Assembly (NCBI RefSeq): GCF_001275135.1
Contig: NZ_LFQU01000029.1
Coordinates: 1-36,449 of the forward strand
Reading direction: 5' to 3'
DNA length: 36,449 bases
DNA from: Xylanibacter rarus
GTDB taxonomy: Bacteria; Bacteroidota; Bacteroidia; Bacteroidales; Bacteroidaceae
Position 1 is the first letter of the stretch. Each line of letters starts with the position of its first letter. The notes under the pieces were generated by a model. It saw nothing but the letters and a program-made list of their open reading frames with translations. It was not told where the DNA came from and did not search any database. Shown here in pieces: positions 9,878 to 34,451 of this stretch. A program made the translations under genes and the position numbers.

Positions 9878-9965
9878 TGTTGTAAAAGGCGGCATATTAT
9901 AGCGTAAAAGACCGCCTTTCGCATCTCAATATGTGGTCTTTCGGCGTGCAGAATGATGCCTTTTG
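9878..9965. repeat. Four-unit 22-bp quasi-palindrome array, copy P1
   Basis: The four units start at 9878, 9900, 9922 and 9944. Each fits the pattern TGYAAAAGGYGNCCTTTTG to varying degrees, with the conserved CTTTYG block at an exact 22-bp step (9916, 9938, 9960); unit 1 is the most degenerate. Neighbouring units can also cross-pair, for example AAAGGCGG of unit 1 with CCGCCTTT of unit 2. It sits in the gap between the convergent glycosidase and nucleotidyltransferase-like genes. Confidence 0.85.
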
Positions 9966-10050
9966 CATCATGTTACATTTACTTCGAAGATTTGTTCTTA
10001 ACGTGTTGGCGTGCCGTGCAGCTGGTGGTGCATATCCGCGGCGGCGTTGT

Positions 10051-11130
10051 CTAATATCTGGCAGCCATTCTCCAAAAGAAATGATAGAGCCTGAAGACGG
10101 GCTCCCATAGGCTCTCGCCGGGGAAGATGAGCATGAAGCGTGCGTCGCGCACAAGTCTCTGTATGTTCTTTTTCAGTTGACTTCCGCGGTATTTGTCTAT
10201 GCGTTTGTCGTAGAAGCCGAAGTTGCCCGAGAGCATAATCTCATTGAGCAGAAATCTGCCGAGCCGCTCGTCTGCCTTGACTATGAGATATTTGTCGTCG
10301 AGACAGAACACCTTCTGCATCACATACATCACCGCTGTGGCCATCTTATAAAGTCCGCAGCGCTTCAGCGTGCGTGTGTCTGCCTCCTGTTCTGATGCCG
10401 TGAATCCCTGGCGCAGCACGTAGTAATAGTCTAAGAGCTGCTTTAGACCTATGCCCTCATGAAAAAAGTGGTTTGAGATGTGTGCCATCTGATATATGCG
10501 GTTGAATGCTGCAGTGGGCACGGCTATGCTACCGGCTCCGTCGGGCAGCTGCACAATGTTTGCAAACTGCTTGCCGGCGTTCTTGCTGAAATAGTCCTGC
10601 AGTCTGGCGTTGCTTATCAGATTGTTCATAAACTGAGGGCGGTAGTGCAGCTCAACGGTGGTTCCGCCATAGTCGGGAAAGTCAGTGTGGTGATAGCATC
10701 GCTTGCATCCCGGAGCCATATAGCCTACGGTCTTCATCACCTTCTTGTATCCTCCCTCTGCCCATATGTCTATGTCGCCCGGCGTGCGCATGTGCGGGTC
10801 GGGGTAGAGCAGGGCGTTTCCCTGTCCTTTAAGCAGGCAGGTGCGGAGTCCTTTGCGTCTGAATGTTTCAGAAACTTTAGCTGCGTTGACGTTTACCTTT
10901 GTGTTGAGTTTGGCTATCTGGCGGCTTAGGGCAAACCATCTCATGGTCATCTCCTTTTCGGGCAGACATTCTTTGGGCAGGCGGTTAATGCCATGGAAGA
11001 TAACGCCTTGAAGGTTTTGTTCCTTGGCCATGCGGAACAGTATCGGCCAGTCGGCGGCAGTTATGCCTTCGGGAGCCGGCTGTGATTCGTCAATAGAAAA
11101 CCGCAGAAGCTGAAAAAACTTTGATGTCAT
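10051..11130 (-). CDS. Nucleotidyltransferase-like protein (NTP_transf_5 type)
   Basis: The 359-residue product resembles the Pfam NTP_transf_5 family, uncharacterised nucleotidyltransferase-fold proteins often found near surface-polysaccharide genes. The best mark is the central stretch KGQGNALLYPDP followed by RTPGDIDIWA. There a Gly-rich strand and a D-x-D pair (GDIDIW) stand where the metal-binding residues of the fold would be. No signal peptide or membrane segment is seen, so it should be cytoplasmic. It is the last gene of a minus-strand group, 18 bp after the TPR protein gene, which suggests co-transcription. No polysaccharide genes adjoin it here, so its substrate is unknown. The ATG at 11130 gives a start typical of the family. 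Confidence 0.75.
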   Translation of the reverse strand: MTSKFFQLLRFSIDESQPAPEGITAADWPILFRMAKEQNLQGVIFHGINRLPKECLPEKEMTMRWFALSRQIAKLNTKVNVNAAKVSETFRRKGLRTCLLKGQGNALLYPDPHMRTPGDIDIWAEGGYKKVMKTVGYMAPGCKRCYHHTDFPDYGGTTVELHYRPQFMNNLISNARLQDYFSKNAGKQFANIVQLPDGAGSIAVPTAAFNRIYQMAHISNHFFHEGIGLKQLLDYYYVLRQGFTASEQEADTRTLKRCGLYKMATAVMYVMQKVFCLDDKYLIVKADERLGRFLLNEIMLSGNFGFYDKRIDKYRGSQLKKNIQRLVRDARFMLIFPGESLWEPVFRLYHFFWRMAARY

Positions 11131-11148
11131 TGTGCTGCAATAAACGGG

Positions 11149-11823
11149 TTATTTGCATTTAGCGTACAGATCCTTCAGCGCTCCGCGTGCAACTCCGCTT
11201 CTTACGAGCTGGTCGAGCAGGGCTTTTGCCTCTCTCTTCCTGTCCATACTGATGAGCACTTCTGCCTTTGAAATGATGTAGTCTTGGTTGTCGGGCTCGC
11301 GTTTAAGCGCCTCGTTGTAGTCATACAGTGCCGTTTCGTATGAGCGCATCTCTTTCTCGAGTTCTGCTCTTGCGGCATAGACGATGCTGCTGTCTGGGAA
11401 CATTTCAACAAGATTGTTGAACTCGTCCATGGCCTGTGCGTTGCGCTTCAGCTGTATGTATGTGTATGCCAGTCCGAGTCGTGCCTGCATGTTGCGAGGT
11501 GACATTCTCAGAAAGTCCTCATAGTCGTTTCTTGCCAGTTCATACCTGCGCATGTTGTTGTTGGCGTAAGCTCTGAAGTAAAGTGCCGAAAGGTTCACCG
11601 TATCCTTTTTCAGAATAGCGTTGCATGTCTCTGCTGCGTCTTCCCATTCAAGCAGCTGAAGGTTGACGGCAGCTTTCTGCAGCAACAGGTCCGTAGAGTC
11701 GGGATGAAGATAAAGCTGGCTGTTTATTACAGATAAAGAATCACGCCATTGCTTTTGCGTCTGCGCCTTTAGGGCGGTGACGCCAAGCAATAGCGTGAGT
11801 ATGCAGATAATTTTAATTTTCAA
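11149..11823 (-). CDS. Secreted tetratricopeptide-repeat protein
   Basis: The 224-residue product has a signal peptide (about residues 1-20, cleavage likely before Gln21 in LKAQ), so it is probably periplasmic. The rest is made of TPR-like helical hairpins of about 34 residues; the clearest are ALYFRAYANNNMRRYELA, ARLGLAYTYIQLKRNAQA and the last containing ALYDYNEALKREPDN. TPR domains bind other proteins; no enzymatic motif is present and no partner can be named. It lies 42 bp after the DUF349 gene and 18 bp before the nucleotidyltransferase-like gene, so the three probably form one transcript. Confidence 0.8.
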   Translation of the reverse strand: MKIKIICILTLLLGVTALKAQTQKQWRDSLSVINSQLYLHPDSTDLLLQKAAVNLQLLEWEDAAETCNAILKKDTVNLSALYFRAYANNNMRRYELARNDYEDFLRMSPRNMQARLGLAYTYIQLKRNAQAMDEFNNLVEMFPDSSIVYAARAELEKEMRSYETALYDYNEALKREPDNQDYIISKAEVLISMDRKREAKALLDQLVRSGVARGALKDLYAKCK

Positions 11824-11865
11824 TTTACTTATCTATGTTTATTGTTCTGACCGTCTTGCCGAAAA

Positions 11866-13757
11866 TCAGTCTTCGTCTTTGTTCTCGGCGTCGATGGCCT
11901 TAATCTTTTCGCGTACAAGGTTCATGTCGTCCTTAAGCTTCTGAACCTTTCTGTTCATTTCGTCGATGAGGCTGTTGCCCTTCTTGCTCGAAGCGTTAAG
12001 GAATCCGAGGTTGTTCTCGTAGGTCTGAACTTCCTGCTTGATTGCCTCATAGCGGCGCATCAGGCGTGCGCGTTCGTTGTCGAGAGCGTCAGCGCCCTTC
12101 TCTGCAACGTTCTTCAGGTTGTTCTTGAACTTGTCGAGACGGCGGCGTGCTGTTGATATGTTAAGCTCTTTGTAAAGCTTGTCCAGTATGTCGTGATACT
12201 CTTTGTAGAGCTTGTCTTTCTCCTTAAACGGAACGTGGCCTACAGCGTTGTATTCGTCGATAAGCTCGCGCACTTTGTCCTGTATGTTGTCTCCGGCATT
12301 CTCAGCCAGTGCTTTCAGCTGTTCTATTATGCCGCGTTTCTTCTCGAGGTTGGTGCGCTCCTCGTTGCGTGTGCCGGCGTTGGCGCTGTTGCGTGCCTCA
12401 AAGAAGTGGTTGCATGCAGTGAGGAACTCGTTCCACAGCTTGTCGCCAAGTTTCTTAGGCACCATTCCTATGGTCTTCCATTCCTTCTGCAGGGCTATCA
12501 GCTTGTCGCTTGTCGACTTCCATTCGGTGCTGTCCTGCAGGGCCTTTGCCTGCTCGATGAGTGCTCTCTTCTTGTCGGCATTCTCAGCAAACTGCTGTTT
12601 CATGTTCTTGAAGAATTCAGCTTTCTTGCTGAAGAAGTCGTCGCAGGCAGCGCGGAAACGCTCAAAGATCTTTACGTTCATCTTCTGCGGAGCGAAGCCT
12701 ATGGTCTTCCATTCAGCCTGTATGGCGATGATGTCCTTGGTCTTCTTCTCCCATTCGCCTGCGGTCTTTATTTCTTCCTTGGCTATTTCTTCAATTTTCT
12801 CGCACAGCGCTGTCTTCTTTGTGAGGTTGTCTTCCTCTTTTGCGCGCAGCGATTCGAAGTGCTGCTGATGGCGCTTGTTAATTATAGTAGATGCTGCCTT
12901 GAAGCGTGCCCACACTTCCTCGCGCAGTTCCTTTGCAACAGGGCCGGTCTCACGGAACTCCTGATGCAGTTTCTGCAGCTGGTGGAATGCGCTTATCACG
13001 TCTTCCTCTGTGCCGAGTTTTTCGGCAGCCTCGCATATCTTTGTCTTTATTTCAAGATTCTTCTTGAAGTCGTATTCGCGTGCCTCGCTGTTTAGTTTCA
13101 GCAGGTCGTAATACTGCTCAACGTAGAGCTGATAGTTGCGCCACAGCTCATTCGCCTTTTCTGCCGGCACGAGCTTGATTTCTTTCCACTCCTGCTGCAG
13201 CTTCTTGAAGTCCTGATATGATTTGTTGGCTTCTTCGGGCGAAGTAACCATAGCTTTAATCTTCTCGATGATGTCGAGCTTTTTCTTCAGGTTTTCCTGC
13301 TTTTCTTTTCCTGCTCAAGGAACAGTTTGGCGCGTTTTTCCTTTATTACGCCCATCTCAGCCTTAAACACCTCTTCGTCTTCGTCAGGAAGCACTTTGTA
13401 GTTTGCCGGGTCGCCGCCTCCCTCAAGATATGCTTTCATGTCAGCTTCTCTTTCGGCAAAGTGAAGTTTGTAAAAGATTGTTTTGAGGTAATCTATTTCG
13501 CCTTTCTGAGGATGCTCGTCGCTGTGTGCGATTTCTTTCACCCTTTCTATTATTTCGCTTTTGCTTTTATATACTTTTTTCAGTGCGGCAGCTTCAGAAC
13601 TTTCTGAGACAAATTCTCCTGTTTCGGTGGTGTCGGTTGTCACTTCTGCGTTGTTTTCATTGGCAGCGCAGTTTTCTTGCATGTTGTTATCGGTTAGTTC
13701 AACATTCATTTTCTCAGTGTTCTCTTGGCTGAGTGTCTTTTCTTGAGAGTCCATCAT
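11866..13757 (-). CDS. DUF349 repeat protein, interrupted by a frameshift
   Basis: DUF349 proteins are long, charged, helical cytoplasmic proteins of unknown function, common in Bacteroidota. The 3' part (11866-13251) carries five DUF349-like repeats, marked by EWKEIKLVP, EFRETGPVA, EWKTIGFAP, EWKTIGMVP and EYNAVGHVP. The 5' part (13287-13757) encodes an acidic low-complexity N-terminus and a helical region that ends prematurely after LFLEQEKKSRKT. Adding one base near 13305, where the coding strand reads GAAAAGAAAAGC, joins the two parts as LEQEKEKQENLKKKLDIIEK. This is a smooth helix and gives about 630 residues, a usual length. So one base is missing, by error or by mutation. A candidate promoter lies about 50 bp upstream of the start. 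Confidence 0.88.
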
Positions 13758-13808
13758 ATAACTTTTTATTCGTTCATGAATTGATTTTCAGGTAAAACCT
13801 TAGGTGTG

Positions 13809-13816
13809 CAAACTTA
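13809..13816 (-). promoter_or_regulatory. Candidate -7 element for the DUF349 operon
   Basis: The minus strand reads TAAGTTTG, a match to TAnnTTTG, followed by C as is common. The start point would be near 13802, about 45 nt before the ATG at 13757. The -33 region is AT-rich without a clear TTTG. Confidence 0.5.
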
Positions 13817-13869
13817 ATTAAAAATATTGTAAATACCTAATAAATTTGGAAAAAAACGTTTTTCTTGGG

Positions 13870-14796
13870 TTAAATGAGCCTTTTGTGGCGGAAAATCCAC
13901 CATGATATGCCTGAAATGAGCACGGATACTATTATGGCTATCACGAAGCCGTATTTCCATTGTTCCATGCCGTTTATGAGGTTCATTCCGAGCAGGCTGG
14001 CTATGAGCGTGGGGAACATCAGGATAATCGACACTGATGTGAGCGTACGTATCACGGTGTTCATGTTGTTGTTGATGATACTCGAATATGTGTCCATGGT
14101 AGATTCGAGAATGTCAGAGTATATGTTTGTGGTTTCGCGCGCCTGGCTCATCTCGATGTTTACGTCCTCAATCAGGTCGGCGTCGAGTTCGTCCACCTGC
14201 AGCTTGAACTTCAGCTTTGCCAGAAGGTTCTCGTTGCCGCGGATGGATGTGATGAAGTAGGTCAGCGAGTCTTGCAGTCTTGACAGGCCTATGAGCGACT
14301 CGTTGTTCACTTCCTTGTCAAGGTTGCGCTTTGATTTTTCTATCAGGCTGTTTATCTGCTTCAGCCGTTTCAGATACCATACGGCCGAAGAGAGGAACAG
14401 GCGGAAAATCATGTCGACGTAGTCGGTGAAGCCCTCGCCGCGCTTCTGCTGATAGCTCACGAAGTCTATCATCATGTTTGTTTCGTGAAAGCACACCGTG
14501 ATGGTTACGTCTCGCTTGTGTATTATGCCGAGCGGCACGGTGGTGTAGGGCGTTCTCGATCTGATTTCCTTTACAAAAGGTATACGCAGGATTATGAGCA
14601 TCCAGCCGTCATCGTATTCATAACGGGCACGCTCATCATTATCGCTGATGTCAGAAAGGAAATAATCGGGAATCTTAAATTCATTTTCAAGAAGACGCTG
14701 GTCTTCTTCCGTCGGGCATGTCACTTGTATCCAGCAGTTAGGCTCCCACTCGCCAATCTGCCTAAGGCCTTTGGTTGTGTTCCAATATGTTCTCAT
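13870..14796 (-). CDS. corA: CorA-family divalent cation transporter
   Basis: CorA proteins are pentameric inner-membrane channels for Mg2+ (some for Co2+, Ni2+ or Zn2+). The 308-residue product has the usual plan: a long soluble N-terminal domain with extended helices, then two C-terminal membrane segments (about 246-268 and 281-301). The signature Gly-Met-Asn (LLGMNLING) sits at about 270-272, at the end of the first segment. The final residues (FRHKRLI) are basic, as expected for the cytoplasmic end. Length is typical. It lies 112 bp upstream of the DUF349 gene on the same strand but has its own strong promoter. Which metal it carries cannot be told. Confidence 0.92.
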   Translation of the reverse strand: MRTYWNTTKGLRQIGEWEPNCWIQVTCPTEEDQRLLENEFKIPDYFLSDISDNDERARYEYDDGWMLIILRIPFVKEIRSRTPYTTVPLGIIHKRDVTITVCFHETNMMIDFVSYQQKRGEGFTDYVDMIFRLFLSSAVWYLKRLKQINSLIEKSKRNLDKEVNNESLIGLSRLQDSLTYFITSIRGNENLLAKLKFKLQVDELDADLIEDVNIEMSQARETTNIYSDILESTMDTYSSIINNNMNTVIRTLTSVSIILMFPTLIASLLGMNLINGMEQWKYGFVIAIIVSVLISGISWWIFRHKRLI

Positions 14797-14925
14797 TTGC
14801 TAATCCTCCGAAACGGTTATGACTGCACGGCGGTCAGCATCAATGAGCAAACCTCCGCGCCTACAAGTTCATATTTTCCGCGTAATAATCGTCCATGAAT
14901 AAATTAAAATTTCTGTTTTGCGGTG

Positions 14926-14956
14926 CAAAGATACTGCAAGTTGGGCTAATCTCAAA
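14926..14956 (-). promoter_or_regulatory. Bacteroidetes-type promoter for corA
   Basis: On the minus strand TTTG (14956-14953) is followed after 19 bp by TATCTTTG (14933-14926), matching both parts of the Bacteroidetes consensus at the usual spacing. The start would be near 14919, giving a leader of about 120 nt. Confidence 0.8.
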
Positions 14957-15067
14957 ATAAAAATGAATGAAATGAATTTTAATTTTGTATTTAAATTGTG
15001 TTACAATGGCTTGTTGCGTTTCTTTGTTCGGTTTTTGTCGTGTTAGTTGTGCTTATGTAAATTAAAG

Positions 15068-15106
15068 CAAGGCTCTATAGCCTTTTTGTCGGCGTATAGA
15101 GCCTTG
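15068..15106 (-). terminator. Possible terminator hairpin between the lipoprotein gene and corA
   Basis: CAAGGCTCTATA at 15068-15079 is the perfect inverse complement of 15095-15106, with a 15-base loop. Read on the minus strand it is followed by CTTTAATTT, a weak T-rich tail. It lies 237 bp after the stop of the minus-strand lipoprotein gene and directly next to repeat copy R2. Confidence 0.5.
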
Positions 15107-15108
15107 AG

Positions 15109-15302
15109 GCCACAATCGGTCATTCCGCAGCATGTGTATTAATCCTATTAGCAGTCTGATGCTTTCTCTGTCTTGTTCTTTTATATTGTCGTCCTGCCGT
15201 CTGATGTTTTGTTTGTTTGGCCGTCATTTCAGCTAAAATTCAGACGATAATAGGCTCAATAGATAACATTGATTCTGCCGAATACTTATGACCAATTGGG
15301 GC
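15109..15302 (+). repeat. Dispersed ~200-bp element with terminal inverted repeats, copy R2 (diverged)
   Basis: GCCACAATCGGTCAT at 15109-15123 and the inverse of GCCCCAATTGGTCAT at 15288-15302 form 15-bp termini that match at 13 positions. Internal landmarks of the family are kept in order: ATGCTTTC, then ATTGTCGTC, then CTCAATA, then CCGAAT, then ATGACC. The rest has diverged strongly from copies R1 and R3. It lies just downstream of the minus-strand lipoprotein gene. Confidence 0.6.
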
Positions 15303-15342
15303 TGAGCTGTCATTTTGTGTTGACTGTATGTGTAGTGCCGGT

Positions 15343-16878
15343 CTATTCGGGCAATATCGAGACGGATATCGGCGCATAGTCGGATGGCGAGAAGCGGTTC
15401 AGTTGCTTCGATGCGGTGTACGTGCCGCGGAAGTTGGTCAGTCCGCCAAAGTTATACAATACTCCGTTTACACATTCCGTTTCGCCTGTCCAGCTGAATG
15501 TGCCGAGCATCTTCAGCGGTTGCGGGTTGCTGCTGCCTGCCTCGTAGCGCACTACTGAGCCGTCGCTCAAGGCATAGATATAGCCGCCGGCAACGCCGAT
15601 GAAACTGAAGTCGGAGGCGAGCGAGTCGGCTGGGGCACAGCGTTGCGCCGTCAGTTTGTTGCCGTCTATCATGTATGCCGTGTGCCGGCTGTCGTCCAGC
15701 AGCCATGTGTTGCCCCTGCCGTCAGATGTGGCGCGTGTGTTTTCGCCGAATGTCGTGCCGTGTGCTGTTTTGCCGTCTGCCGTGGCTATTATGTTGCCGT
15801 TGCTGTCTTTGTCAAGTCTGTATGCGCAGATGTGGGTGTCGGTTACGGCATAGACGATGTTGGCACTTATGTTGACGGCCTTTACTTCTCCGTTATGCGT
15901 GGCGGCAAGGTTCCATTTTCCTGATGCGAGATAATATATTCCGCCGTCGCCTATGATAACGGGTGTGCCGTTCCAGCATGCGCCCTGACCGCTGACGGGC
16001 ATGTCGGCGTATGTTTCTTCGGCGCCTGTCGCCGTGTCGTATGAGCGCAGTTCGTTGGTTGTCACGGTCTGTTCATATCCCAGGTTGGTCTTTTCCACTA
16101 TGCCTCCGCCCATGTATATAGTGGTGCCGTCGGTGAAGTGAGTGGTGGCAGAGCCGCTGTTGCTCAGCTCGCCAAGTTCTTTGTAGACGGTGTTCTGCTT
16201 TACGCGCAGTGTATTTACAGATGCCTCGCCTGCAATAGAGAATTTGCCTTTGGCCTCGCCGTCGGCATTCAGGATGACATAAGGGCATGCCTCATATTCC
16301 TGACCTTTCTTTATATACACGATAGGTTCCTTTTCGGGATAGGTGGCGTCGGGATCAGTGAAGCTGAAGCTGCTGCCGCTCACTATCCCCAGCTGCTGCA
16401 TGCTGCTTTCAGACGAGCGTCCGTTGTATATCTTTACATACACTTTGCCGTCGCGGTAGCAGGCAGATGTCAGCACCACTCCCGTAGTTTCGCTCTCTGC
16501 TGCCGGCTGTTTCACCACAATCTGCATAGAGTCTGCCGCGGCGCGTGTGCCGGCCGCGTTGCTCAGGCGTATGTAGCCAATGCGCTCTTGTCGGGTGATG
16601 TTGCGTGCAGCTATAATCTTTACGCTCTCGCCGCCTTTGCCTCCCATCTGCGACAACTGCAGCCAGTCGGCCGACGATTCTGCCTCCCATGGCTGTGCCG
16701 TGGGTATGGTTATGTCGGCTTGTTGGCCTTCTGCCGACAGACTGACAATGCCTTTGTCGGGAATAATTGGGTCGGGGTCAGGGCCGGGTGACAATTCTTC
16801 GTCGCTGCTGCATGATAATGTCAGTGGAAGAGTGCATGCCATGATGCACCATAGTGATAGTTGATAAAAGTTTTTCAT
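15343..16878 (-). CDS. Lipoprotein with a BACON-like domain and a C-terminal propeller-like region
   Basis: The 511-residue product has a lipoprotein signal ending in LTLSC (acylated Cys23) followed by acidic residues, typical of Bacteroidota lipoproteins destined for the surface. Residues about 42-125 look like a BACON domain (WEAESSADWLQL, then GYIRLSN and IVVKQ), a beta-sandwich often linked to glycan or mucin binding. From about 230 to the end come repeated short beta strands with Gly-Gly and Trp/Tyr ends (TTIYMGGG, GACWNGTPVIIGDGG, GGYIYALSDG, GVLYNFGGL), which suggest a Kelch-like beta-propeller. No catalytic motif is seen. It stands alone, without SusC/SusD or enzymes beside it, so a link to glycan use is an inference from the domain only. 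Confidence 0.72.
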   Translation of the reverse strand: MKNFYQLSLWCIMACTLPLTLSCSSDEELSPGPDPDPIIPDKGIVSLSAEGQQADITIPTAQPWEAESSADWLQLSQMGGKGGESVKIIAARNITRQERIGYIRLSNAAGTRAAADSMQIVVKQPAAESETTGVVLTSACYRDGKVYVKIYNGRSSESSMQQLGIVSGSSFSFTDPDATYPEKEPIVYIKKGQEYEACPYVILNADGEAKGKFSIAGEASVNTLRVKQNTVYKELGELSNSGSATTHFTDGTTIYMGGGIVEKTNLGYEQTVTTNELRSYDTATGAEETYADMPVSGQGACWNGTPVIIGDGGIYYLASGKWNLAATHNGEVKAVNISANIVYAVTDTHICAYRLDKDSNGNIIATADGKTAHGTTFGENTRATSDGRGNTWLLDDSRHTAYMIDGNKLTAQRCAPADSLASDFSFIGVAGGYIYALSDGSVVRYEAGSSNPQPLKMLGTFSWTGETECVNGVLYNFGGLTNFRGTYTASKQLNRFSPSDYAPISVSILPE

Positions 16879-17108
16879 TGCTTTATATTTTTTATTAACG
16901 ATTGCATGTCGCGAAAATATAAAGTCTTTGTGTCCTGCATTTCACGGCTTTCCGTGATTTTTTATTTACAGGTGCAATAGGTGTTGTGGCTCTTTTTATA
17001 TCTTGTGGCACATCAGTTTATGGCGTGTTGTCGTCGTTTCAGGTTGATGTATGCCGTATAAATTTTAGACATTGTGTATCGTCTTGAAAATCAGTCGGTT
17101 ACGGATGT

Positions 17109-17196
17109 ACTTGCAAAAGGTGTCCTTTTGTCTTCCGAAAGACGGCCTTTTAGCCTCTGAAAGATGCCCTTTTGCAGTGCGTTTTGTGGCCTTTTG
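17109..17196. repeat. Four-unit 22-bp quasi-palindrome array, copy P2
   Basis: This is the most regular array. The units start at 17109, 17131, 17153 and 17175, with the CTTTTR block at 17125, 17147, 17169 and 17191 (exact 22-bp steps). Unit 1 contains the perfect hairpin CAAAAGG-tgt-CCTTTTG. The outer ends TTGCAAAAGG (17111-17120) and CCTTTTGCAA (17190-17199) are also inverse complements, so the whole array can close on itself. It sits between pepD and the lipoprotein gene, both on the minus strand. Confidence 0.9.
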
Positions 17197-17302
17197 CAAA
17201 TCGGCTGTGTGCATCGTCATTAATTTGACGTGCCGGCATGATTTTCCGCTTCTTGTCGTGTGGCGTGTTTATGGCGTTCTTATGCCAGGTGCTGCAACGG
17301 AA

Positions 17303-17347
17303 AAGGCGGAAGGTTCGGGGCTCATTTTGCCCTTTGCCTTCCGCCTT
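17303..17347 (-). terminator. Terminator after pepD
   Basis: AAGGCGGAAGG at 17303-17313 pairs perfectly with CCTTCCGCCTT at 17337-17347 (11 bp), with further GC pairing in the loop. On the minus strand it is followed by a short TTTT. It begins 45 bp after the pepD stop. Confidence 0.65.
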
Positions 17348-17391
17348 CAGCATGTATTAGGTTTGTGTAATTTTTATCGTTTCAGCTAAAA

Positions 17392-22959: not shown

Positions 22960-23047
22960 GTTTCCAAAAGGTGGCATTTTGGCCTGTAAAAGGTGCCCTT
23001 TCGTCATGTAAAAGACGGCCTTTTGCAGTCTAAAACATGATCTTTTG
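22960..23047. repeat. Four-unit 22-bp quasi-palindrome array, copy P3
   Basis: The units start at 22960, 22982, 23004 and 23026. The NTTTYG block recurs at 22976, 22998, 23020 and 23042, exactly 22 bp apart. Unit 2 contains AAAGG-tgc-CCTTT. It lies inside the ppk-ppx gap, so it would be part of a read-through mRNA, starting 10 bp after the ppk stop and ending about 100 bp before the ppx start. Confidence 0.9.
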
Positions 23048-23148
23048 TGTTATGACTTATAACGGCCTGTGTGTCAATGTGTTACACGACACATGGCTTG
23101 CCGTGTGAAATGATGATTTGATAAACAGTTTTAAAATTAAAAACAGAT

Positions 23149-25560: not shown

Positions 25561-25625
25561 TTTTTAAGTAGGATTAATTGTTTGGGTGCACGTCCGTTTT
25601 TCTTTATGTATATATTTAATAAAGC

Positions 25626-25830: not shown

Positions 25831-25861
25831 ACGGCCGGCATACAGTGGTTTCATTTATGAT

Positions 25862-25916: not shown

Positions 25917-25927
25917 TAGCTATGGCA

Positions 25928-25960
25928 TCCCGGGCGTAGGGCTGTTCCGTCGGCCCGGGA
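25928..25960 (-). terminator. GC-rich hairpin just after the carboxyltransferase gene
   Basis: TCCCGGGC (25928-25935) pairs with GCCCGGGA (25953-25960). It begins 12 bp after the stop codon of the minus-strand gene. A T-run is lacking, so it could stabilise the 3' end or act in termination together with the neighbouring inverted repeat. Confidence 0.5.
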
Positions 25961-25971
25961 ATATGTTCGGA

Positions 25972-27753: not shown

Positions 27754-27813
27754 TATTATTAGATCTTTTATTGTGTGTGGCCTGATTTTGTCCGGCACAC
27801 ATGTTCATTTATG

Positions 27814-27821
27814 CAAAAATA
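27814..27821 (-). promoter_or_regulatory. Candidate -7 element for the carboxyltransferase gene
   Basis: The minus strand reads TATTTTTG followed by C, fitting TAnnTTTG. The start would be near 27807, leaving a leader of about 54 nt. The upstream sequence is very AT-rich with no clear TTTG at the right distance. Confidence 0.48.
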
Positions 27822-28257
27822 GGTATTTTTTCTAAATCTAAAAGTTTTTATGACAAAATAATATGGTTTGAGACGAATATTTATTTGTTTTTTATAGTCT
27901 TATGAACATTTTATCATATTTTTTGTGCTGATTTGCTAAATACATATAGCAAAATACATGATAAAGTGTCTAAAATTCACTTGTAGGATAGCAAATAGAC
28001 AAGTTTCTATTTGTAACTAACAAACCTTAACGTGCCTGTGGAAATTAATTTTACAAACTGATTCAGCCCGCTTTGCCTGTATTTGTCTTGCTTGGCTTGC
28101 AGTTTTGTAGCTTTAGTCGGGGAGATTGAGGGCGGTGGTGATGTTTAACCATAATTCTGATGACCGTTTTTTGGGGGTAGCCGGAGTCGACTTTAATCTG
28201 GAAAAGGGCTCTTTGAAGTCAACCATATTTAGGAAAGGGCAGGGAGGAGGAATAAGC
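27822..28257. other. AT-rich intergenic region with a small palindrome
   Basis: No gene is supported. The part nearest the carboxyltransferase gene is strongly AT-rich. It holds a hairpin-like operator candidate, CAAATAGA (27992-27999) with TCTATTTG (28006-28013). The 96-codon open frame from 28126 runs into the multi-hairpin element and has no recognisable domain. Confidence 0.45.
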
Positions 28258-28480
28258 AAAAAAGTTTTCTTTAGAAACTCATCACTCGTCACATTGCCAT
28301 GTAAAGTGTTGGCTTACAGAGTGTTGAGGCGTGATGAGTTTACGGACCAACTCATCACATCGTGCCCTGCGGCCTTCGGGCGTGATGAGTTTCGCAGGCA
28401 ACTCGTCACACTGTAACATACTGTCACACAGCGGGTTGTGCCGCTTTGTGATGAGTGATGAGTTTTTAAGAAAAAACTTT
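28258..28480. repeat. Multi-hairpin palindromic element, copy E2
   Basis: It has the same plan as 9664-9850. Termini AAACTCATCACTCGTCACA (28275-28293) and 28447-28465 pair with one G-T; flanking AAAGTTTTCTT and AAGAAAAAACTTT lengthen the stem. Inner hairpin one pairs 28331-28340 with 28349-28358. Inner hairpin two pairs 28382-28391 with 28400-28409, with one G-T. The loops are 8 bases and differ from those of copy E1, while the stem motif is kept. Confidence 0.85.
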
Positions 28481-28570
28481 GTGATTTTATCTTTGTTGTC
28501 CTGTATATGCGAAAGCATGCCTGTTTAATTTCATAATGCAGCGTTTCGGTGTGTAAACTGCCGCGAATTA

Positions 28571-28658
28571 AAATGTGAAAGGCTATCTTTTATCATGCGA
28601 AAGGCCATGTCTTGGCATGCAAAAAGGCATGTTTCATGTTGCAGAAGCATGCCTTTTG
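28571..28658. repeat. Four-unit 22-bp quasi-palindrome array, copy P4
   Basis: The units start at 28571, 28593, 28615 and 28637. The block equivalent to CTTTTG recurs at 28587, 28609, 28631 and 28653, exactly 22 bp apart, with unit 2 the most diverged. AAAAGGCATG of unit 3 pairs perfectly with CATGCCTTTT of unit 4. It lies between element E2 and repeat copy R4, in the gap upstream of the carboxyltransferase gene and downstream of the patatin gene. Confidence 0.85.
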
Positions 28659-28664
28659 TCTTGT

Positions 28665-28803
28665 GTATTTCCGTGTCTTGCGGTGTCTGTTAATTATGAA
28701 TTATTAATTATGAGCTATAAAAATGCCTGCAAAAAACTGACCGAAATCCGCTCAATATAAAGCAAAAATAGCGACCGAATTACAATGACTGATTTTTGTT
28801 AAA
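28665..28803 (+). repeat. Dispersed element, copy R4 (diverged, left end uncertain)
   Basis: The right half is clear: ATGCCTGC, GAAATC, CTCAATATAAAGCAAAAATA, then GACCGAAT and a terminus ending TGATTTTTGTTAAA, matching the minus strand of copy R1. Left of about 28700 the similarity is weak, and the expected start would overlap array P4. The element may be truncated or invaded there. Confidence 0.6.
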
Positions 28804-28830
28804 CCGGTTTTCCCATGCAGTCCCGTTTTG

Positions 28831-31056
28831 TCAGAACTGGAAGCCAAGGTTTACGTAGAAGTAAGGCTCCTCCGTGCGGCTTGAGTATCCGAGCGACGCG
28901 CCTATCGGGCCGAACATGCTGTTGTAGTAATATGCTATCTCGCATCCTGTCATCGGCCCCTTCTCGAAGAGGTTGCGTAGCTTGTCGCCACGCTGTCCGA
29001 ACGACAGGCGGCCTATGATGTAGTTGTTGTCCATGATGCGCTGCTGCGCCATGAGCTGTGCCGTTAGCAGCATGTTGTCAACAAACTCTATGTGGCCGAT
29101 GCCAGCGAAGGGCTGCTGCTGTTCGAGATACATTCCGGGGTGCATGCCGCCTATGGAGTTGCGCATGATTAGCGGAATGTCGTTGCCGATAAGGAAGCGT
29201 CCGCTTACCATGGGCTGCAGCACGAAACGGCTGTTGAGCGGGAACGACATGCGCCACATGAAGTCGGCCACGCTCAGTCCGGGTTCATCTCCGTGGCTTA
29301 TGAAGTTGTCTGTGTAGTAGCCGTATCCGGCATTGAAGCGTGCGCCGCGCGTGGTGAAGAACCAGCGGTCTTCCGAGTTGTAGTTCATCCTGAAGATGTA
29401 GCTGTAGAAGTGGACATTGTCGAGAGTCTCATATTCAGACGACGGACCCGACAGCATGTCGTGAAAGTCGTAGAAGTCCATCTTCACGTTTACGTCTACC
29501 GAGAAGTTGCGTATGTTGAAGCTGAGCAGCTGCAGGTTGACAGAGTGCTGGTTGTAAGTGAAGTTGTAGTCGCGCTTGCCGCCCTCATAGATGTTTGTGT
29601 CGTCGTGCCTGAATACATACGAGAGGCCTATCTTTCCGTAGTGCAGCGGATTGATCTGTGCGTCTAGCCTTGCCATCATTCGCTTGCCCAGGCGGCCCGT
29701 AAGCTCCATTATCACAGGTATGCGGGCCTTTATCTGGTGAGACACATTGGCCTGCAGGGCCACCATCTCCTCTGTGTCGAATCTCACTCCGAGGTTTACC
29801 CTGCTTGTGCGCTTGTCGTCTGCCGATATTCTCAGCACGTATCCTTTGCCGCTCTTGTTGAGCGTATAGCCCGGGTTGGTGTATAGAAAGTTTACGCCGA
29901 GGGCTGTGATAGCCTCTTCGATGCGTTTCACCGAAACGCTGTCGCCTTTGTTGAGCCTGTATTTCGACATGATATAGTTGCGGTCGGAAGCCACAATGCG
30001 GTCGAAGCATACGGAGTCTATCTTGAACGTAAGTTCCGAACTTGTCGGCACAGGGCGCGAGGCACGTGCCGCGTGGATGTAGCCTTCTGAGGCAAGGCGC
30101 TGCTGCAGTGCCACAATCTTTTCCCACTGCTGCATGGCTGCCTCTTCGCCGCGTGCTATCAGCGTGTCGATGGCTGCCCGCGTAAAGCTTGCCGAAGAGT
30201 AGCCCTTTACGTTCACCTTGATAGGAATGTCGGTCATAGCCCAGTTTTCGTCAAACTTGTTCTTGCAGTTGATGTCCACGATCTGCATCAGTATGGCGGG
30301 GCCGCTTTGCAGCTCTGCCGCCGTGCGGTTGTCGCTCTGCACCGACACACCTATTATTATATCCGCCCCCATGCGCTTGGCTATGTCGGCCGGATAGTTG
30401 TTGCGCAGGCCTCCGTCTACGAGCACCATCGAGTCTTTGCGCACCGGGGTGAACACGCCCGGTATGGCCATGCTTGCCCGCATGGCTGTCGAGAGATGCC
30501 CGCCGTACATGTCGTATTCGGTGTTGTCCACGATGTTTGTTGCCACACAGGCAAACGGTATGGGCAGGTCGGCAAAGCTGATTGAGTCGTGATAGCCTAC
30601 GGTGAGCCGTGTGAAGAGCTGCGACAGGTTGGTGCCGCTTATCAGTCCGCCTGCGGCGTTGCGTGCCTTGCGGGCTATGCTCAGCGGGCGCGACAGCAGA
30701 TAGGTGTTCTGCTTCTCTCTTTCGGCCAGGCTCTGGTTGCTCACGTCCACCTTGTCAGACAGCAGTGTCTTCCAGTCCTGCACCTTTACGAGCGAGTCGA
30801 GTGTGGCAGCGTCGTAGCCTATTGAATACAAGCCGCCGATCAGGGCGCCCATCGACGTGCCCGTGATAATGTCTACAGGTATGCCCGCACGCTCCAGCAC
30901 GCGCAGCACGCCTATGTGGGCCATGCCCTTTGCGCCGCCGCCGCTGAGCACCACAGCCACGCGGCTGCGGCACGAGTCTTGCACTTCTTCGGCATTAGCC
31001 GGAACAAAAAGTAATGCCGTCAGTATGACAGCTAGCAGGCGGAGTTTACTTTTCAT
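28831..31056 (-). CDS. Patatin-like phospholipase with C-terminal outer-membrane barrel (PlpD/FplA-like)
   Basis: The 741-residue product has a signal peptide (cleavage likely after Ala22), then a patatin hydrolase domain: oxyanion loop SGGGAKG (38-44), nucleophile Ser68 in GTSMG, and Asp214 in VDGG, the Ser-Asp dyad. A POTRA-like segment (about 345-420; RIEEAITALGVNF, YTLNKSGKGYVL) leads into a beta-barrel of the surface-antigen type that ends in VNLGFQF. This order matches type Vd secretion proteins such as PlpD and FplA, where the barrel anchors or exports a phospholipase. In Bacteroidota the lipase domain may stay periplasmic; which is true here cannot be told. The gene ends 28 bp from repeat R4 and lies 51 bp downstream of queF on the same strand. 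Confidence 0.9.
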   Translation of the reverse strand: MKSKLRLLAVILTALLFVPANAEEVQDSCRSRVAVVLSGGGAKGMAHIGVLRVLERAGIPVDIITGTSMGALIGGLYSIGYDAATLDSLVKVQDWKTLLSDKVDVSNQSLAEREKQNTYLLSRPLSIARKARNAAGGLISGTNLSQLFTRLTVGYHDSISFADLPIPFACVATNIVDNTEYDMYGGHLSTAMRASMAIPGVFTPVRKDSMVLVDGGLRNNYPADIAKRMGADIIIGVSVQSDNRTAAELQSGPAILMQIVDINCKNKFDENWAMTDIPIKVNVKGYSSASFTRAAIDTLIARGEEAAMQQWEKIVALQQRLASEGYIHAARASRPVPTSSELTFKIDSVCFDRIVASDRNYIMSKYRLNKGDSVSVKRIEEAITALGVNFLYTNPGYTLNKSGKGYVLRISADDKRTSRVNLGVRFDTEEMVALQANVSHQIKARIPVIMELTGRLGKRMMARLDAQINPLHYGKIGLSYVFRHDDTNIYEGGKRDYNFTYNQHSVNLQLLSFNIRNFSVDVNVKMDFYDFHDMLSGPSSEYETLDNVHFYSYIFRMNYNSEDRWFFTTRGARFNAGYGYYTDNFISHGDEPGLSVADFMWRMSFPLNSRFVLQPMVSGRFLIGNDIPLIMRNSIGGMHPGMYLEQQQPFAGIGHIEFVDNMLLTAQLMAQQRIMDNNYIIGRLSFGQRGDKLRNLFEKGPMTGCEIAYYYNSMFGPIGASLGYSSRTEEPYFYVNLGFQF

Positions 31057-31107
31057 GATGTTGTCTGGTTTGCAGGGCGGCCTTATGGCATGTGTCGCGG
31101 CTTAAGG

Positions 31108-31584
31108 TCAGCGTCCCATGTTGTGGTTAATGAAGCGGTGCTCGGCCATCTTCTCGTATTTAGTGCCGGGCTGTCCGTAGTTGGCATAGGGATATATGCT
31201 TATGCCTCCGCGCGGAGTGAAGTATCCCGTCACCTCTATATATTTAGGGCTCATCAGCCTGATGAGGTCCTTCATTATTATGTTCACGCAGTCTTCGTGG
31301 AAGTCGCCGTGGTTGCGGAAGCTGAACAGATACAGCTTCAGACTCTTGCTCTCAACCATGCGCTCGCCGGGGATATAGCTTATGCGTATCTCGGCAAAGT
31401 CGGGCTGACCCGTGATGGGGCACAGCGATGTGAACTCAGGGCAGTTGAACTGCACCCAGTAGTCGTTGCCCGGATGCTTGTTCTCAAACGTCTCGAGCAC
31501 TTCAGGTGCATAGTCCATTCTGTAGGCGGTCTTTGCGCCGAGGGCCTTCAGTCCCTCGTCTTTTCTGTTGTCTTCAGTCATCAT
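31108..31584 (-). CDS. queF: NADPH-dependent 7-cyano-7-deazaguanine reductase (preQ0 to preQ1)
   Basis: QueF reduces preQ0 to preQ1 with NADPH, the last step before insertion of the base into tRNA for queuosine. The 158-residue product is the short, unimodular type. Catalytic residues are Cys55 in TSLCPIT, Asp62 in QPDFAE and Glu97 in DFHEDC, and the NADPH-binding motif ESKSLKLY is at 78-85. The start ATG at 31584 overlaps the stop of the upstream transporter gene by four bases (ATGA), so the two are translationally coupled and share the riboswitch at 32275-32308. Confidence 0.96.
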
Positions 31585-32273
31585 TGTAGATTAAATATTT
31601 TCCAAACGTTATAGTTTATTCCGTTGTCATACACGTCGGTGCCCTCATGCTCCTTGGTCTTCTTCACTACACGTATCGTTACGGGCAGCACAATGATTTC
31701 GTAGAGCGTCTTAAGCACCACCTGCGACACTATGAGCGACAGCATCTCGCCGGCAGGCACCACGCCCGACAGCGCAAGCGGGAAGAAGATCAGCGAGTCG
31801 GCACTTTCGCCGAACACTGTGCTCACCACGGCGCGCAGAGAGAAATGCTTGCCGTTGGACGATATCTTCATGCGGCTCATCACGTAGGCGTTGATGAACG
31901 AGCCGGCAAGGAAGGCCACAAACGAGGCGGCGGCAATGCGCGGGGCAAGGCCGAACACGGCATGGAAGCCCTCGTCGTTGTGCCAGTAAGGCGCGCCAGG
32001 AATGGCGTCGGCCAGCGCTCCGAACAGCACGAAGATGAAGTTCATGGCGAAGCCTGTCCATATAAGGAGCCTTGCCTTGCGGAATCCCCACACCTCACAC
32101 ACGCAGTCGTTGATAATGTAAGACACCGGAAACACGAGCAATCCGCCGGTGATGTTCACCGGTCCGATTGAAATCTGCTTTGTCTCTAACACGTTTGCCG
32201 TTATCAGGCAGACGCAGAAAAGTATGCTGAAAAGCATGAACAGCACACTTACTTGTTGCTTATCTGTTTTCAT
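31581..32273 (-). CDS. yhhQ: Queuosine precursor transporter (YhhQ/QPTR family)
   Basis: YhhQ proteins import queuosine precursors such as preQ0 or preQ1. The 230-residue product has about six membrane segments and the family block [17 protein letters not shown] near residue 50-65 (compare FPI-YI-xD-xxE-V-G in the family), followed by RKARLLIW. The ATG at 32273 is chosen because an upstream in-frame TTG at 32300 lies inside the riboswitch. AAGGA sits directly upstream of the ATG and is part of the riboswitch pseudoknot. Import (YhhQ) and reduction (QueF) of the same precursor in one unit is coherent. Confidence 0.92.
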
Positions 32274-32274
32274 T

Positions 32275-32308
32275 TCCTTGTTTTTTAAGAGGTTTACCAA
32301 GCACTCTG
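32275..32308 (-). promoter_or_regulatory. preQ1-I riboswitch controlling yhhQ-queF
   Basis: Read 5' to 3' on the minus strand the 34 nt show the small preQ1-I fold. Stem P1 is AGAG with CUCU. A U follows the 5' strand, and the unpaired C directly before CUCU is the expected ligand-pairing cytosine. Loop 1 holds CUUG, which pairs with CAAG in the 3' tail to form the pseudoknot. The linker UUAAAAAA is the A-rich loop. The tail CAAGGA includes the ribosome-binding site two bases before the ATG, so ligand binding should block translation. It resembles the short Thermoanaerobacter (Tte) type closely. Confidence 0.85.
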
Positions 32309-32325
32309 TAAATAAATTGCGGCTG

Positions 32326-32333
32326 CAAAATTA
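32326..32333 (-). promoter_or_regulatory. Candidate -7 element for yhhQ-queF
   Basis: The minus strand reads TAATTTTG followed by C, matching TAnnTTTG. A start near 32319 would put the riboswitch about 11 nt into the transcript, as expected for such a short aptamer. The -33 region lacks a good TTTG at the usual distance. Confidence 0.52.
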
Positions 32334-32372
32334 ATAAAAAAACTCAATAAGATAAGATTACACCTGTAATTA

Positions 32373-32403
32373 TTTGCCCGATACCGATTAATTGATAACT
32401 TTG
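32373..32403 (+). promoter_or_regulatory. Bacteroidetes-type promoter for the thioredoxin-like gene
   Basis: TTTG (32373-32376), 19 bp, then TAACTTTG (32396-32403) followed by C: both consensus parts at the standard spacing. The start would be near 32410 with a leader of about 67 nt. It diverges from the yhhQ promoter. Confidence 0.82.
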
Positions 32404-32476
32404 CATTTATGTTATTTATACGGGCCGTAAAAGGCCGGAGATATTTGGAAATAAACAAAGAAAACGTAAAAGGAAT

Positions 32477-33556
32477 ATGAAAAAACTATTGACAACAGCC
32501 CTGACGGTGATGGCAGCCATCTCGATGCAGGCGCAGGAGACTGCTTACAAGATTACGGGAACAGTGCCCGCAAGCGTATCGAAGGTTTATCTTTATGTGA
32601 TGGGGCAGCGCGCAGCTTTAGACAGCGCAACGGTGAGCAACGGAAAGTTTGAGCTGAGCGGAAAGCAGAACCTTAACGAGATATTCATGCTGGACGCAAA
32701 TAATGAGGGCATGGCATTCTTCAACGACGGAACACCTGTGGACATGAACCTGGTGAACTACACCATGGCCGGTTCTGACCTCAACAAAAAACTCTTTGAG
32801 TGCAGCCTGCCGCTGAAAAAGTATGACGCTGCAACAAGCGAGATATATGCCGAGTATGAGAAGGTGGCGAGAGACAACAGCGAAGCCGGCAAGGCAAAGG
32901 CTAAGGCTCTGGCAGAGCGCTTCAACGTGGTGAGAGACTCTATGCTCAACGACATGCTGAACATAATAAAGACAAACAAGGACAACCTTATACCGGCCGT
33001 TTATCTGAGTCAGATTTACACCGCGCTCGACTATAACGAGCTGAAAGACCTGCTAAGTCCGTCGGCTCCTTACTATAACCATCCTGCCTTGGCCCGCGTC
33101 AAGCAGCAGCTTGCTGCCTTCGAGAAGCGCATGCCCGGCAAGATGTTCACAGACCTGACGATGAACGACACCGAAGGCAAGCAGCGCAAGCTGAGCGAGT
33201 GGTGCGGCAAGGGCAACTATGTGCTCGTTGACTTCTGGGCAAGCTGGTGCGGACCGTGCCGTCAGGAGATGCCAAACGTAGTGGCAAACTATGAGAAATA
33301 TCATGCCAAGGGCTTCGAGGTAGTGGGCGTTTCGTTCGACAACAGCGCCGAGGCATGGAAGTCTGCCATTAAGAGCATCGGCATGAAGTGGCCCAACATC
33401 AGCGACCTGAAGGGCTGGAAGTGTGCCGCAGCTCCCCTCTACGGCATCAACGCCATACCGGCCAACGTGCTGCTCGACGGCGAGGGCAAGATTGTTGCCA
33501 CAGACCTAAGGGGCGAGGATCTCGGCGAGAAGCTCAAAGATATTTACGGATTCTAA
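32477..33556 (+). CDS. TlpA-like thioredoxin-fold protein with an N-terminal DUF4369-type domain
   Basis: This envelope thiol-disulfide protein probably reduces or oxidises exported proteins. The 359-residue product has a signal peptide (cleavage likely before Gln20-Glu21 in QAQE, possibly periplasmic). A DUF4369-like beta domain common in Bacteroidota follows (about 22-110; YKITGTVPASVSKVYLY). A helical linker (about 110-215) leads to the thioredoxin/AhpC-TSA domain (about 220-359). The active site WCGPC has Cys258 and Cys261 in FWASWCGPCRQE. The cis-Pro loop is NAIPANVLLDGEGKI. Its own promoter and terminator make it a single-gene unit. The partner protein is unknown. Confidence 0.9.
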   Translation: MKKLLTTALTVMAAISMQAQETAYKITGTVPASVSKVYLYVMGQRAALDSATVSNGKFELSGKQNLNEIFMLDANNEGMAFFNDGTPVDMNLVNYTMAGSDLNKKLFECSLPLKKYDAATSEIYAEYEKVARDNSEAGKAKAKALAERFNVVRDSMLNDMLNIIKTNKDNLIPAVYLSQIYTALDYNELKDLLSPSAPYYNHPALARVKQQLAAFEKRMPGKMFTDLTMNDTEGKQRKLSEWCGKGNYVLVDFWASWCGPCRQEMPNVVANYEKYHAKGFEVVGVSFDNSAEAWKSAIKSIGMKWPNISDLKGWKCAAAPLYGINAIPANVLLDGEGKIVATDLRGEDLGEKLKDIYGF

Positions 33557-33643
33557 ATAGGCATGGCGCCGGCATGGCGCTGCCTGAGAGGCATCTCAGA
33601 TATTATAATGTATATGGTGCTGTGCGCCATATCCGTAAAAAAG

Positions 33644-33703
33644 CTGACGGACAGGCTTATTGCTGATTTACGGCAATGCTGCTGCCCGTCAGTTTTGTTT
33701 TTG
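33644..33703 (+). terminator. Terminator after the thioredoxin-like gene
   Basis: CTGACGG (33644-33650) pairs with CCGTCAG (33686-33692), with inner CAG/CTG and ATTGC/GCAAT pairing. The stem is followed by TTTTGTTTTTG. It begins 87 bp after the stop. Confidence 0.72.
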
Positions 33704-34451
33704 TTGCGTATGCCTTATTGCCTTGTTGCCTGTCGGCAGGCATTTGTATATCTGCCGCAGTGACTTCGTTTGTGTCTGACATGCCTTCACGCATTATTCC
33801 GCAGGCACATCTTTAGGTATAAGGCCGTGCTGCGTGCATACTTCGGCAATAGTCTTGATGACGGTAAAAAGTAATGACAAAATTATTTTCCGTTACAGAA
33901 AAACAAAGTGTAACGTATGTTAATAGAATCTCGTCTAAATCTCGCTTTGTTGGCTTTTATTAACAAAAGACCATCATTGAAGGTCGTAAATCAATGTTTT
34001 TCATCATCTAAAAGCATGCTTTTTGCATGCAGAAAGGCTGTATTTCGGCACATAAAAGGCCGTCTTTCAGGCTGAAATCGGTCATTTTTAGTCTTCTGAT
34101 ACTTTTGATCTTGACTTGAAAAATGTATAACTACTTGATTTGTTGTATGTTATATGTAAGACTTGATTTTGTCCTGTTTTTCTGACGAATGCCGTATTTA
34201 TTTCGGGCATGGCAATTCAGAGAGCGTTAAACGGACGAAAATTGCGAATAATATTTACATTCTGCCGTCGACAGGCATATCAGTGTTCGGTGTGCTTAGG
34301 TTGGCTCCGTGGCGGCATGGTGGCCCACACACGGCTTAGTGGCATGCCGCCTTGTCCGTGCAGCCGCATGATGATGGCCGGCAGAGGGCATATATGCGGC
34401 GTGATATTATTACAAAAATTATAAATGAATGAAAAAACTATTGAAATGTGC
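33704..34451. other. Long intergenic region upstream of tnaA
   Basis: Apart from array P5 nothing here is convincing as a gene. A 71-codon open frame at 34209-34424 has no recognisable domain and an unnatural composition. A short hairpin GACC/GGTC lies near 33969-33985. No leader peptide of the TnaC kind is seen near the tnaA start. Confidence 0.5.
34004..34091. repeat. Four-unit 22-bp quasi-palindrome array, copy P5
   Basis: The units start at 34004, 34026, 34048 and 34070. The NTTTYR block recurs at 34020, 34042, 34064 and about 34085, keeping the 22-bp step. Unit 1 contains the perfect palindrome AAAAGCATGCTTTT. Unit 4 is diverged and resembles the terminus of the ~200-bp repeat family (AAATCGGTCATTTTTAG). 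The array lies about 360 bp before the tnaA promoter. Confidence 0.85.

Follow-up and report, generated by a model that had tools for sequence, protein, structure and literature searches.

The bacterial interspersed mosaic element 1 (BIME-1, or RIB) of enterobacteria, built on repetitive extragenic palindromes (REP), has many intergenic palindromic units with an IHF-binding sequence between the palindromes, and a chromosome-organising role has been proposed for it (PMC2817692). In the Bacteroidales, BrickBuilt, a minisatellite miniature inverted-repeat transposable element (MITE) known from Porphyromonas gingivalis and P. gulae, has intergenic tandem repeats of 23 nt, 1 to 22.8 repeats per element, 19 elements in strain ATCC 33277, and a leader and tail with IS5-like ends (PMC4596501). 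Here we describe a family of arrays of 22-bp palindromic units, five of which (P1 to P5) lie in contig NZ_LFQU01000029.1 of Xylanibacter rarus, a stretch of 36,449 nt that we analysed whole and call the window; in the draft genome, called G000 below (3.79 Mb in 85 contigs), it is numbered C29. Several gut and oral Prevotella carry many such blocks, dispersed and with a set unit number, which is four, or five in some species.

BIME-1 is the nearest known system in kind. The likeness lies in the many intergenic palindromic units and perhaps, by a match made by eye, in an IHF-like 29-bp dyad nearby, whereas the tandem 22-bp units, their near-fixed number, their helical phasing and the kept distances between arrays set the Prevotella sequences apart. 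Boccard and Prentki (1993) are reportedly cited in connection with BIME-1 (RIB) elements. The passages on REP surveys in PMC12306157 include no Prevotella, and the Y1 (RAYT) transposase family PF01797 had no match in the array-bearing genomes G000, G336 and G131 and had matches in G004 and G010. With BrickBuilt the arrays share intergenic tandem repeats of near-equal length (22 vs 23) and a Bacteroidales host; unlike BrickBuilt, they have a near-fixed count (four units in 66 of 78 arrays) and more numerous copies, and they show a one-sided dyad and sometimes a longer inverted block (the K block), no leader or tail having turned up, though no dedicated search for one was made. Dispersed palindromic sites read by a structural protein are also known from matS/MatP, SlmA and Noc; these are single sites limited to or excluded from part of the chromosome, whereas Prevotella has arrays with a phased second dyad and a minimum spacing. 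RemA, known from biofilm gene control in Bacillus, is described as lacking the common DNA-binding domains and reading repetitive DNA of low conservation (PMC8481266), and the arrays may be likened to its targets. The original prediction, made from the window's letters, knew of no account of such arrays, and we likewise found none in the open-access literature on BrickBuilt, Prevotella repeats, A-tracts and nucleoid proteins, REP/IHF/BIME or Lrp octamers; open-access papers on regularly spaced repeats deal mostly with CRISPR and do not describe these arrays, and none was found on 22-bp Prevotella repeats or on Prevotella repeats and two chromosomes.

Arrays with a fixed step and a near-fixed number of units

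The window had been said to hold five arrays of exactly four 22-bp units, at 9878-9965 (P1), 17109-17196 (P2), 22960-23047 (P3), 28571-28658 (P4) and 34004-34091 (P5), and all five are present there. Scored with a matrix built from the other four arrays, P1 to P5 reached 62.6, 64.7, 79.2, 50.8 and 41.8 bits against window backgrounds with means of -74 to -83 (s.d. 16-17); held-out P1, P2 and P3 ranked within the best six plus-strand places, and P4 and P5 fell outside these six, which include one-unit shifts of the trained arrays. A count of exactly four stands for P1, P2 and P3, which are clean arrays of four palindromic units; P3 begins 9 bp past the ppk stop in the ppk-ppx gap and recurs at ppk in five relatives. 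It is less secure for P4, which has two marginal units (28527 and 28549, scores 7 and 4) upstream of four good ones, and for P5, which is degenerate, with three good units and a weak fourth, the genome-trained model favouring 33982-34069 over 34004-34091.

Across G000, a two-unit palindrome pattern with up to three mismatches matched 105 times on one strand and 102 times on the other, and the backward pattern did not match at all. A chained weight-matrix scan of 1,093,207 bases (contigs C1, C2, C4, C13 and C20, parts of C24 and C28, and the window) found 78 arrays scoring at least 30, compared with a maximum of 27.4 in reversed C1, C2 and C4. Four units were counted in 66 of the 78, three in 7, five in 2 and six in 3; the four-unit share was 49/53 among arrays scoring at least 60 and 17/25 among those scoring 30-60, and counts near the threshold are uncertain because the scan matrix was trained on part of the same arrays. 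The step was 22 bp in all 235 cases, with steps of 21 and 23 permitted at a 6-bit penalty. Over the 66 four-unit arrays, units inside the array had median scores of 19 to 23, compared with -25 to -30 for each of four outer positions on either side, and no outer position exceeded 8 bits, these figures being drawn from arrays already called. The five window arrays are real and members of a large family, for which the fixed step and, in most members, the count of exactly four, both proposed from the window alone, stand up in the genome scan.

We rejected recent tandem duplication as the chief source of the units, as adjacent units are barely more alike than units from different arrays (0.616 vs 0.589 in G000 and 0.586 vs 0.553 in G010, an excess of 3-4 standard errors, and 0.564 vs 0.565 in G004).

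Geometry and sequence at the ppk junction

A DNA comparison with ppk gave matches in 80 of 398 genomes, and among the best eight loci of these 80, six (G000, G390, G583, G377, G366 and G004) have a four-unit array 3-11 bp past the ppk stop, the G583 array having four units by a G004-trained model and three by the G000-trained one. At all six a dyad is centred 33 bp beyond the last unit, and the next gene is ppx in five, the contig of G366 ending first. The array letters have meanwhile largely turned over: the six arrays are 52-92% identical (mean 65%), and those of G000 and G004 are 62% identical, compared with 56% (s.d. 6) for arrays at unrelated places, with the inner A/T tracts agreeing at 84% and the spacer at 22%. 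Count, step, dyad offset and position after ppk are thus kept in six species, as the suggestion of selection on geometry would have it; conservation at this one junction strongly supports such selection and is the strongest evidence for it. A layout that persists through such changes of sequence points to a chromosomal protein-DNA structure not described so far.

Some arrays are closer relatives. Median identity between G000 arrays is 62%, with three pairs at 92-98% (C4:84800 and 99729; C4:50164 and 58878; C4:41054 and C13:80436), and one G004 pair is 89% identical; the 40-bp flanks of these pairs are 15-62% alike. For C4:50164/58878 the identity ends at the array edge (the flanks are 15% and 25% alike), and conversion between arrays may account for this. 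Identity among the nine G131 arrays is 82% at the median and 90% at most, the lowest value, 15%, being due to a register difference, and these arrays have longer flanks in common. Upstream of ppk, a further three- or four-unit array is present in G583, G377, G366 and G004 and was not found in G000 and G390. Near-identical pairs and this patchy occurrence indicate that arrays are copied, gained and lost, and copying plays some part in their history.

Structure of the 22-bp unit

The reading that suits the unit best is TGCAAAAGG NNN CCTTTTGCA, a palindrome of 21 bp that has a base pair at its centre, with one base added. A pyrimidine-purine (YR) step flanks the central base in 262 of 264 G000 units, in either direction and in many orders along an array. 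Counted over scored units, the step lies by the dyad in 309 of 313 for all 78 G000 arrays and, for units above 8 bits in arrays above 45 bits elsewhere, in 223/223 (G004), 60/60 (G336), 45/45 (G131) and 135/146 (G010). Such a step would speak for DNA bending at the dyad by a protein rather than for an RNA.

Whereas the stem-loops of REP/BIME are kept by compensatory change, mirror columns in the 264 units showed no Watson-Crick pairing significantly above shuffles (largest z 1.5, several values below the shuffled one). Mutual information was near null at mirror pairs 7/21, 6/22 and 5/23 (z 1.1, 1.2 and -0.3) and raised, with no extra pairing, at 13/15, 11/17, 4/24, 3/25 and 2/26; strong dependences between neighbours were seen at columns 13-14, 14-15, 9-11 and 17-19, and the half-sites AAAAGG and AATATG interchange. 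Palindromes with neighbour dependence and no pairing covariation are as would be expected for readout by a protein or of DNA shape, and a protein bound on one DNA face, which was among the possibilities first put forward, appears to be the best reading of palindromes phased at 22 bp.

A 29-bp dyad beside the arrays

When aligned, the near-identical array pairs have common sequence on one side only, and this is a 29-bp dyad of the form nGTAAC nnn YTGA nnn TCAR nnn GTTACn. With a motif seeded by eye from array flanks and all offsets up to 160 bp permitted, a dyad above 10 bits was found near 119 of 141 G000 and G004 arrays (160 bp around each); the distance between its centre and that of the nearest unit is 21-22 bp in 68 cases, 32-34 bp in 19 and 44 bp in 3, making 90 of the 119, and takes other values in 29. 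Dyads above 20 bits number 59 in the 1.09 Mb of G000, of which 36 are within 60 bp of an array, and none occurs in reversed sequence; G131 has the dyad at an offset of 34 bp in 9/9 arrays. Read as YAA-N4-YTGA..TCAR-N4-TTR, the dyad resembles, by eye, a symmetrised version of the IHF consensus, WATCAA-N4-TTR, and such a symmetric form is what a homodimer of the HU/IHF family would need.

The dyads had been overlooked in the original prediction. That of P2 lies at 17075-17103 (26.3 bits), its centre 33 bp from the centre of unit 1, and that of P3 at 23058-23086 (26.5 bits), 33 bp from the centre of unit 4; P5 has no convincing dyad, the best being 11.0 bits at 34126-34154.

Arrays in other genomes

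A sequence-only model from the five window arrays matched 13 of 40 genomes, namely G000, 12 of 23 others of the genus and none of 16 from other genera; this survey scored part of the candidates (150 of 1052 in G000), and genome totals are lower bounds. A family-wide search with stricter filters matched 20 of 301 genomes, ten of which belong to six other genera and have one or two matches each. A three-unit pattern found 103 stretches in named contigs, and those listed (80 of the 103) include uncultured Prevotella, Leyella stercorea, Xylanibacter caecicola, Marseilla massiliensis, Prevotella histicola and one metagenome-assembled genome labelled Bacillota, which we take as mis-binned. Loci chosen by this pattern, from the stretches listed, hold 104 arrays (80 four-unit, 13 three-unit and 11 five-unit), omitting arrays that touch a locus end and repeats of the same sequence. 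In Prevotella histicola, locus L262 has a single five-unit array next to a dyad-like sequence.

Four units were counted in 59 of 63 arrays of G004, with 192/192 steps of 22, and in all 15 arrays of G336, which scored 61-95 bits against up to 33 in the reversed control; the nine arrays of G131 all have five units, with one of 36 steps being 21. In the stretches read, unit number is species-bound, G010 being mixed. Array matches in G010 run along the 1.98-Mb contig C3, where L153-L160 (C3:730001-888600) hold several paired arrays with starts 131-154 bp apart, mostly whole multiples of 22, the pairs surrounding AT-rich palindromic sequence. The five-unit arrays of G131 lie inside longer repeats, of which some have inverted ends resembling GGTTCTTCCGTT/AACGGAAGAACC, and this genome has 39 HU-family (PF00216) matches, compared with 4-16 in the other 17 genomes tested.

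Placement and spacing along the chromosome

The G000 arrays lie in tandem (37), convergent (13) and divergent (11) gaps, which offer 98.6, 27.0 and 33.5 kb respectively, so that gap types are used in proportion to their base pairs; REP/BIME, by contrast, is placed at the 3' ends of transcription units. A further 16 arrays lie inside mechanical open reading frames (at least 100 aa) and one at an edge, and among the 16 we take the short frames as spurious and a metH-like one as real. The claim that all arrays are intergenic accordingly holds for nearly all of them, the exception being outside the window: a four-unit array (L067:16203-16290; C4:105203-105290) within the metH-like gene, where it occupies the linker that joins the methyltransferase to the B12-binding domain. 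No array was found in the metH-like gene of G004, which cannot show an empty site, because its linker is too diverged from that of G000 for a clean comparison. Neutral placement over gap types, together with the array inside a gene, means that an array is not tied to a promoter or transcript end, and transcription terminators and operators were rejected as explanations for want of any gap-type preference.

Arrays keep apart on the densest G000 contig. The 21 gaps on C4 run from 4378 to 16149 bp, none being under 4 kb where 9.0-9.5 were expected from random intergenic placement (0 of 2000 simulations as low), and their coefficient of variation (CV) is 0.41, compared with 0.87-1.02 in random placement. 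Over six G000 contigs 2 of 70 gaps are under 4 kb, with 20-23 expected. In tests against uniform placement elsewhere, which took arrays scoring over 33 bits and merged those within 400 bp of each other, the CV is 0.30 in G336 (null 0.91), 0.37 and 0.39 in two stretches of G010, and 0.39, 0.41, 0.44 and 0.54 in four stretches of G004 (null 0.87-0.93). The minimum spacing is about 4.4 kb on the densest G000 contig, about 8 kb in G336 and about 2 kb in G004. An origin or terminus marker was considered and rejected: dnaA of G000 (C1:264346) lies in a sparse region, yet an array of G004 is about 1 kb from dnaA, and in G010 array matches extend along the large contig C3.

What the arrays may be

The best reading, to which we give an even chance, is that the arrays are an architectural nucleoprotein site under selection for geometry. 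Protein dimers would dock on each array in fixed number, one per 21-bp palindrome, with the 22-bp step (two helical turns) placing all dimers on the same side of the DNA. The four dimers, or five in some species, would assemble into a single complex of definite size, in which about 88 bp are bent or wrapped, the YR step by each dyad serving as a flexible point. An HU/IHF-family homodimer would most likely bind the 29-bp dyad (YAA-N4-YTGA-NNN-TCAR-N4-TTR), whole helical turns from the end unit, and so bend the DNA back towards the complex. That dimers sit on one face and form a particle is proposed because of the array geometry; the rest of this mechanism we infer. Complexes at kept distances and blind to gene direction could act as architectural nodes, such as anchors of supercoil domains or of the nucleoid, and a chromosome marker is, among the functions first proposed, the class we prefer.

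More tentatively, the chromosome may be divided into domains by a counted, spaced scaffold of nucleosome-like particles, each with a fixed number of dimers and an HU/IHF clamp. That selection sets these particles at a species-specific minimum distance is an equally tentative part of the proposal. To our knowledge, such a division is known in no bacterium. If the arrays are architectural sites, the DNA would specify both how many subunits make up a complex and how far apart complexes stand, and sequence alone would suffice to read the two. The carriers are bacteria of human guts and mouths, and the organisation of Bacteroidota chromosomes becomes directly testable, because each array is a bait for pull-down and each species has its own count and spacing.

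Several observations weigh against an architectural site. No match was found in 11 of the 23 same-genus relatives and no array in 60 kb of G016, and arrays that are absent or go unrecognised in many members of the genus mean that the function is not essential in it; the two more distant loci among the eight compared at ppk (G538 and G403) have no array after the gene. Counts are mixed in G010 (15 four-unit and 15 five-unit arrays among 39), where 142 of 150 steps are 22 and 8 are 21 or 23. Over six G000 contigs the gap CV is not low (1.35 vs 1.1-1.2) because of long empty stretches, C1 being array-free at 44-170 kb and C2 over its first 53 kb; gaps of about 2 kb exist in G000 and G004; and spacing in G131 is not significantly regular (CV 0.61 vs 0.84, P = 0.15), nor is the minimum gap significant in G131 (P = 0.11) or G010b (P = 0.16). 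The near-identical pairs speak for some copying, and intrinsic curvature is modest in the wedge model. No binder was singled out, AsnC/Lrp (PF01037) and HU (PF00216) members being present in 18/18 genomes tested, with or without arrays.

A possibility that we find rather doubtful is that the arrays are selfish or domesticated repeats dispersed by an unknown transposase, in the manner of a MITE or mosaic intergenic element; its target immunity would space copies a few kb apart, and the units and dyad would be transposase or accessory sites at the element end. The right end of Tn7 has four 22-bp sites. Near-identical arrays between dissimilar flanks, the alike G131 arrays with their longer common flanks and the patchy arrays upstream of ppk would all suit such an element, and the minimum spacing is what immunity would give. 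However, identity in the C4:50164/58878 pair stops at the array edge, as in gene conversion between existing arrays, the post-ppk position is kept in six species, and count and step persist in most copies despite high divergence, which would not be so for an unselected relic; neither a second end nor cargo nor a target duplication was noticed, although no systematic search was made. If a mobile element with immunity were nevertheless responsible, it would represent a novel kind of mosaic repeat, one whose end is counted. Operators of an octamer-forming global regulator that controls adjacent genes, likeliest of the Lrp/AsnC (feast-famine) kind, seem unlikely to us. Lrp/AsnC operators have several phased palindromes of odd length, and the Prevotella units are of this form, being centred on a base pair at a step of 22. 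Four palindromes at 22 bp also fit a DNA-wrapped tetramer of dimers, and the same geometry would arise from a four-dimer protein bending or wrapping the DNA; octamers of Lrp type have been described (PMC3584215). Although the family occurs in every genome tested, its presence does not track that of the arrays, and placement is orientation-neutral, with no enrichment in divergent or promoter-side gaps and one array within the metH-like frame; the five-unit species do not fit an octamer.

Selection for phased A-tracts alone, giving intrinsically curved DNA that needs no dedicated protein, we judge quite improbable. Each array has eight A/T tracts about 11 bp apart, and the earlier suggestion of curved DNA gains weak backing from a wedge model, in which the mean bend is 60 degrees for arrays, 39 for shuffles and 36 for random genomic 88-mers, with 35% of 66 arrays beyond the 95th percentile of random 88-mers. 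Shifting half of each unit out of phase still leaves 54 degrees, however, and curvature does not account for the preferred GG/CC, the arms, the YR centre or the fixed number. Four hairpins at transcript ends, acting as terminators or stability structures, would agree with the self-complementarity of each unit on one strand, and an RNA 3' structure had been named as a possible function; this is the least credible of the explanations, being largely refuted by the absent pairing covariation, although mutual information is raised at some mirror pairs. Arrays occur in all gap types besides, and Rfam at gathering scores gave only a tRNA in the window.

Inverted blocks and other features of the window

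P1 and P4 adjoin the K block, an extended inverted repeat that contains GTGACGAGT palindromes and a pair of 29-bp dyads and which had also been passed over in the window and occurs on C1, C13 and C20 of G000 as well. The block of P1 (9661-9868) has inverted AAAACTCATCACTCGTCACA ... TGTGACGAGTGATGAGTT, inner CTCGTCAC palindromes and two dyads, a weak one at 9687-9715 (14.7 bits) and one at 9799-9827 (19.1 bits) that is 78 bp from the centre of unit 1. The block adjoining P4, at 28258-28481, has its dyads at 28300-28328 (20.7 bits) and 28412-28440 (24.1 bits). Of the dyads above 17 bits, 41 are over 60 bp away from any array, and 30 of these are within a longer inverted block with GTGACGAGT repeats (context read by eye). 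The K-block end motif has 37 matches, 36 of them within 730 bp of an array, one of these being chance-like in the metH-like gene, and the 37th 2.5 kb off. On C1 of G000, GGTTGACTTCAAACAG...CTGATTAAAGTTTACTCCG-like stretches recur by several K blocks and make up a further dispersed repeat. Genes for a TonB-dependent receptor, a SusD-like protein, GH43 and a DUF5060/apiosidase-like protein stand in a row at 606-9395 of the window and form a polysaccharide utilisation locus.

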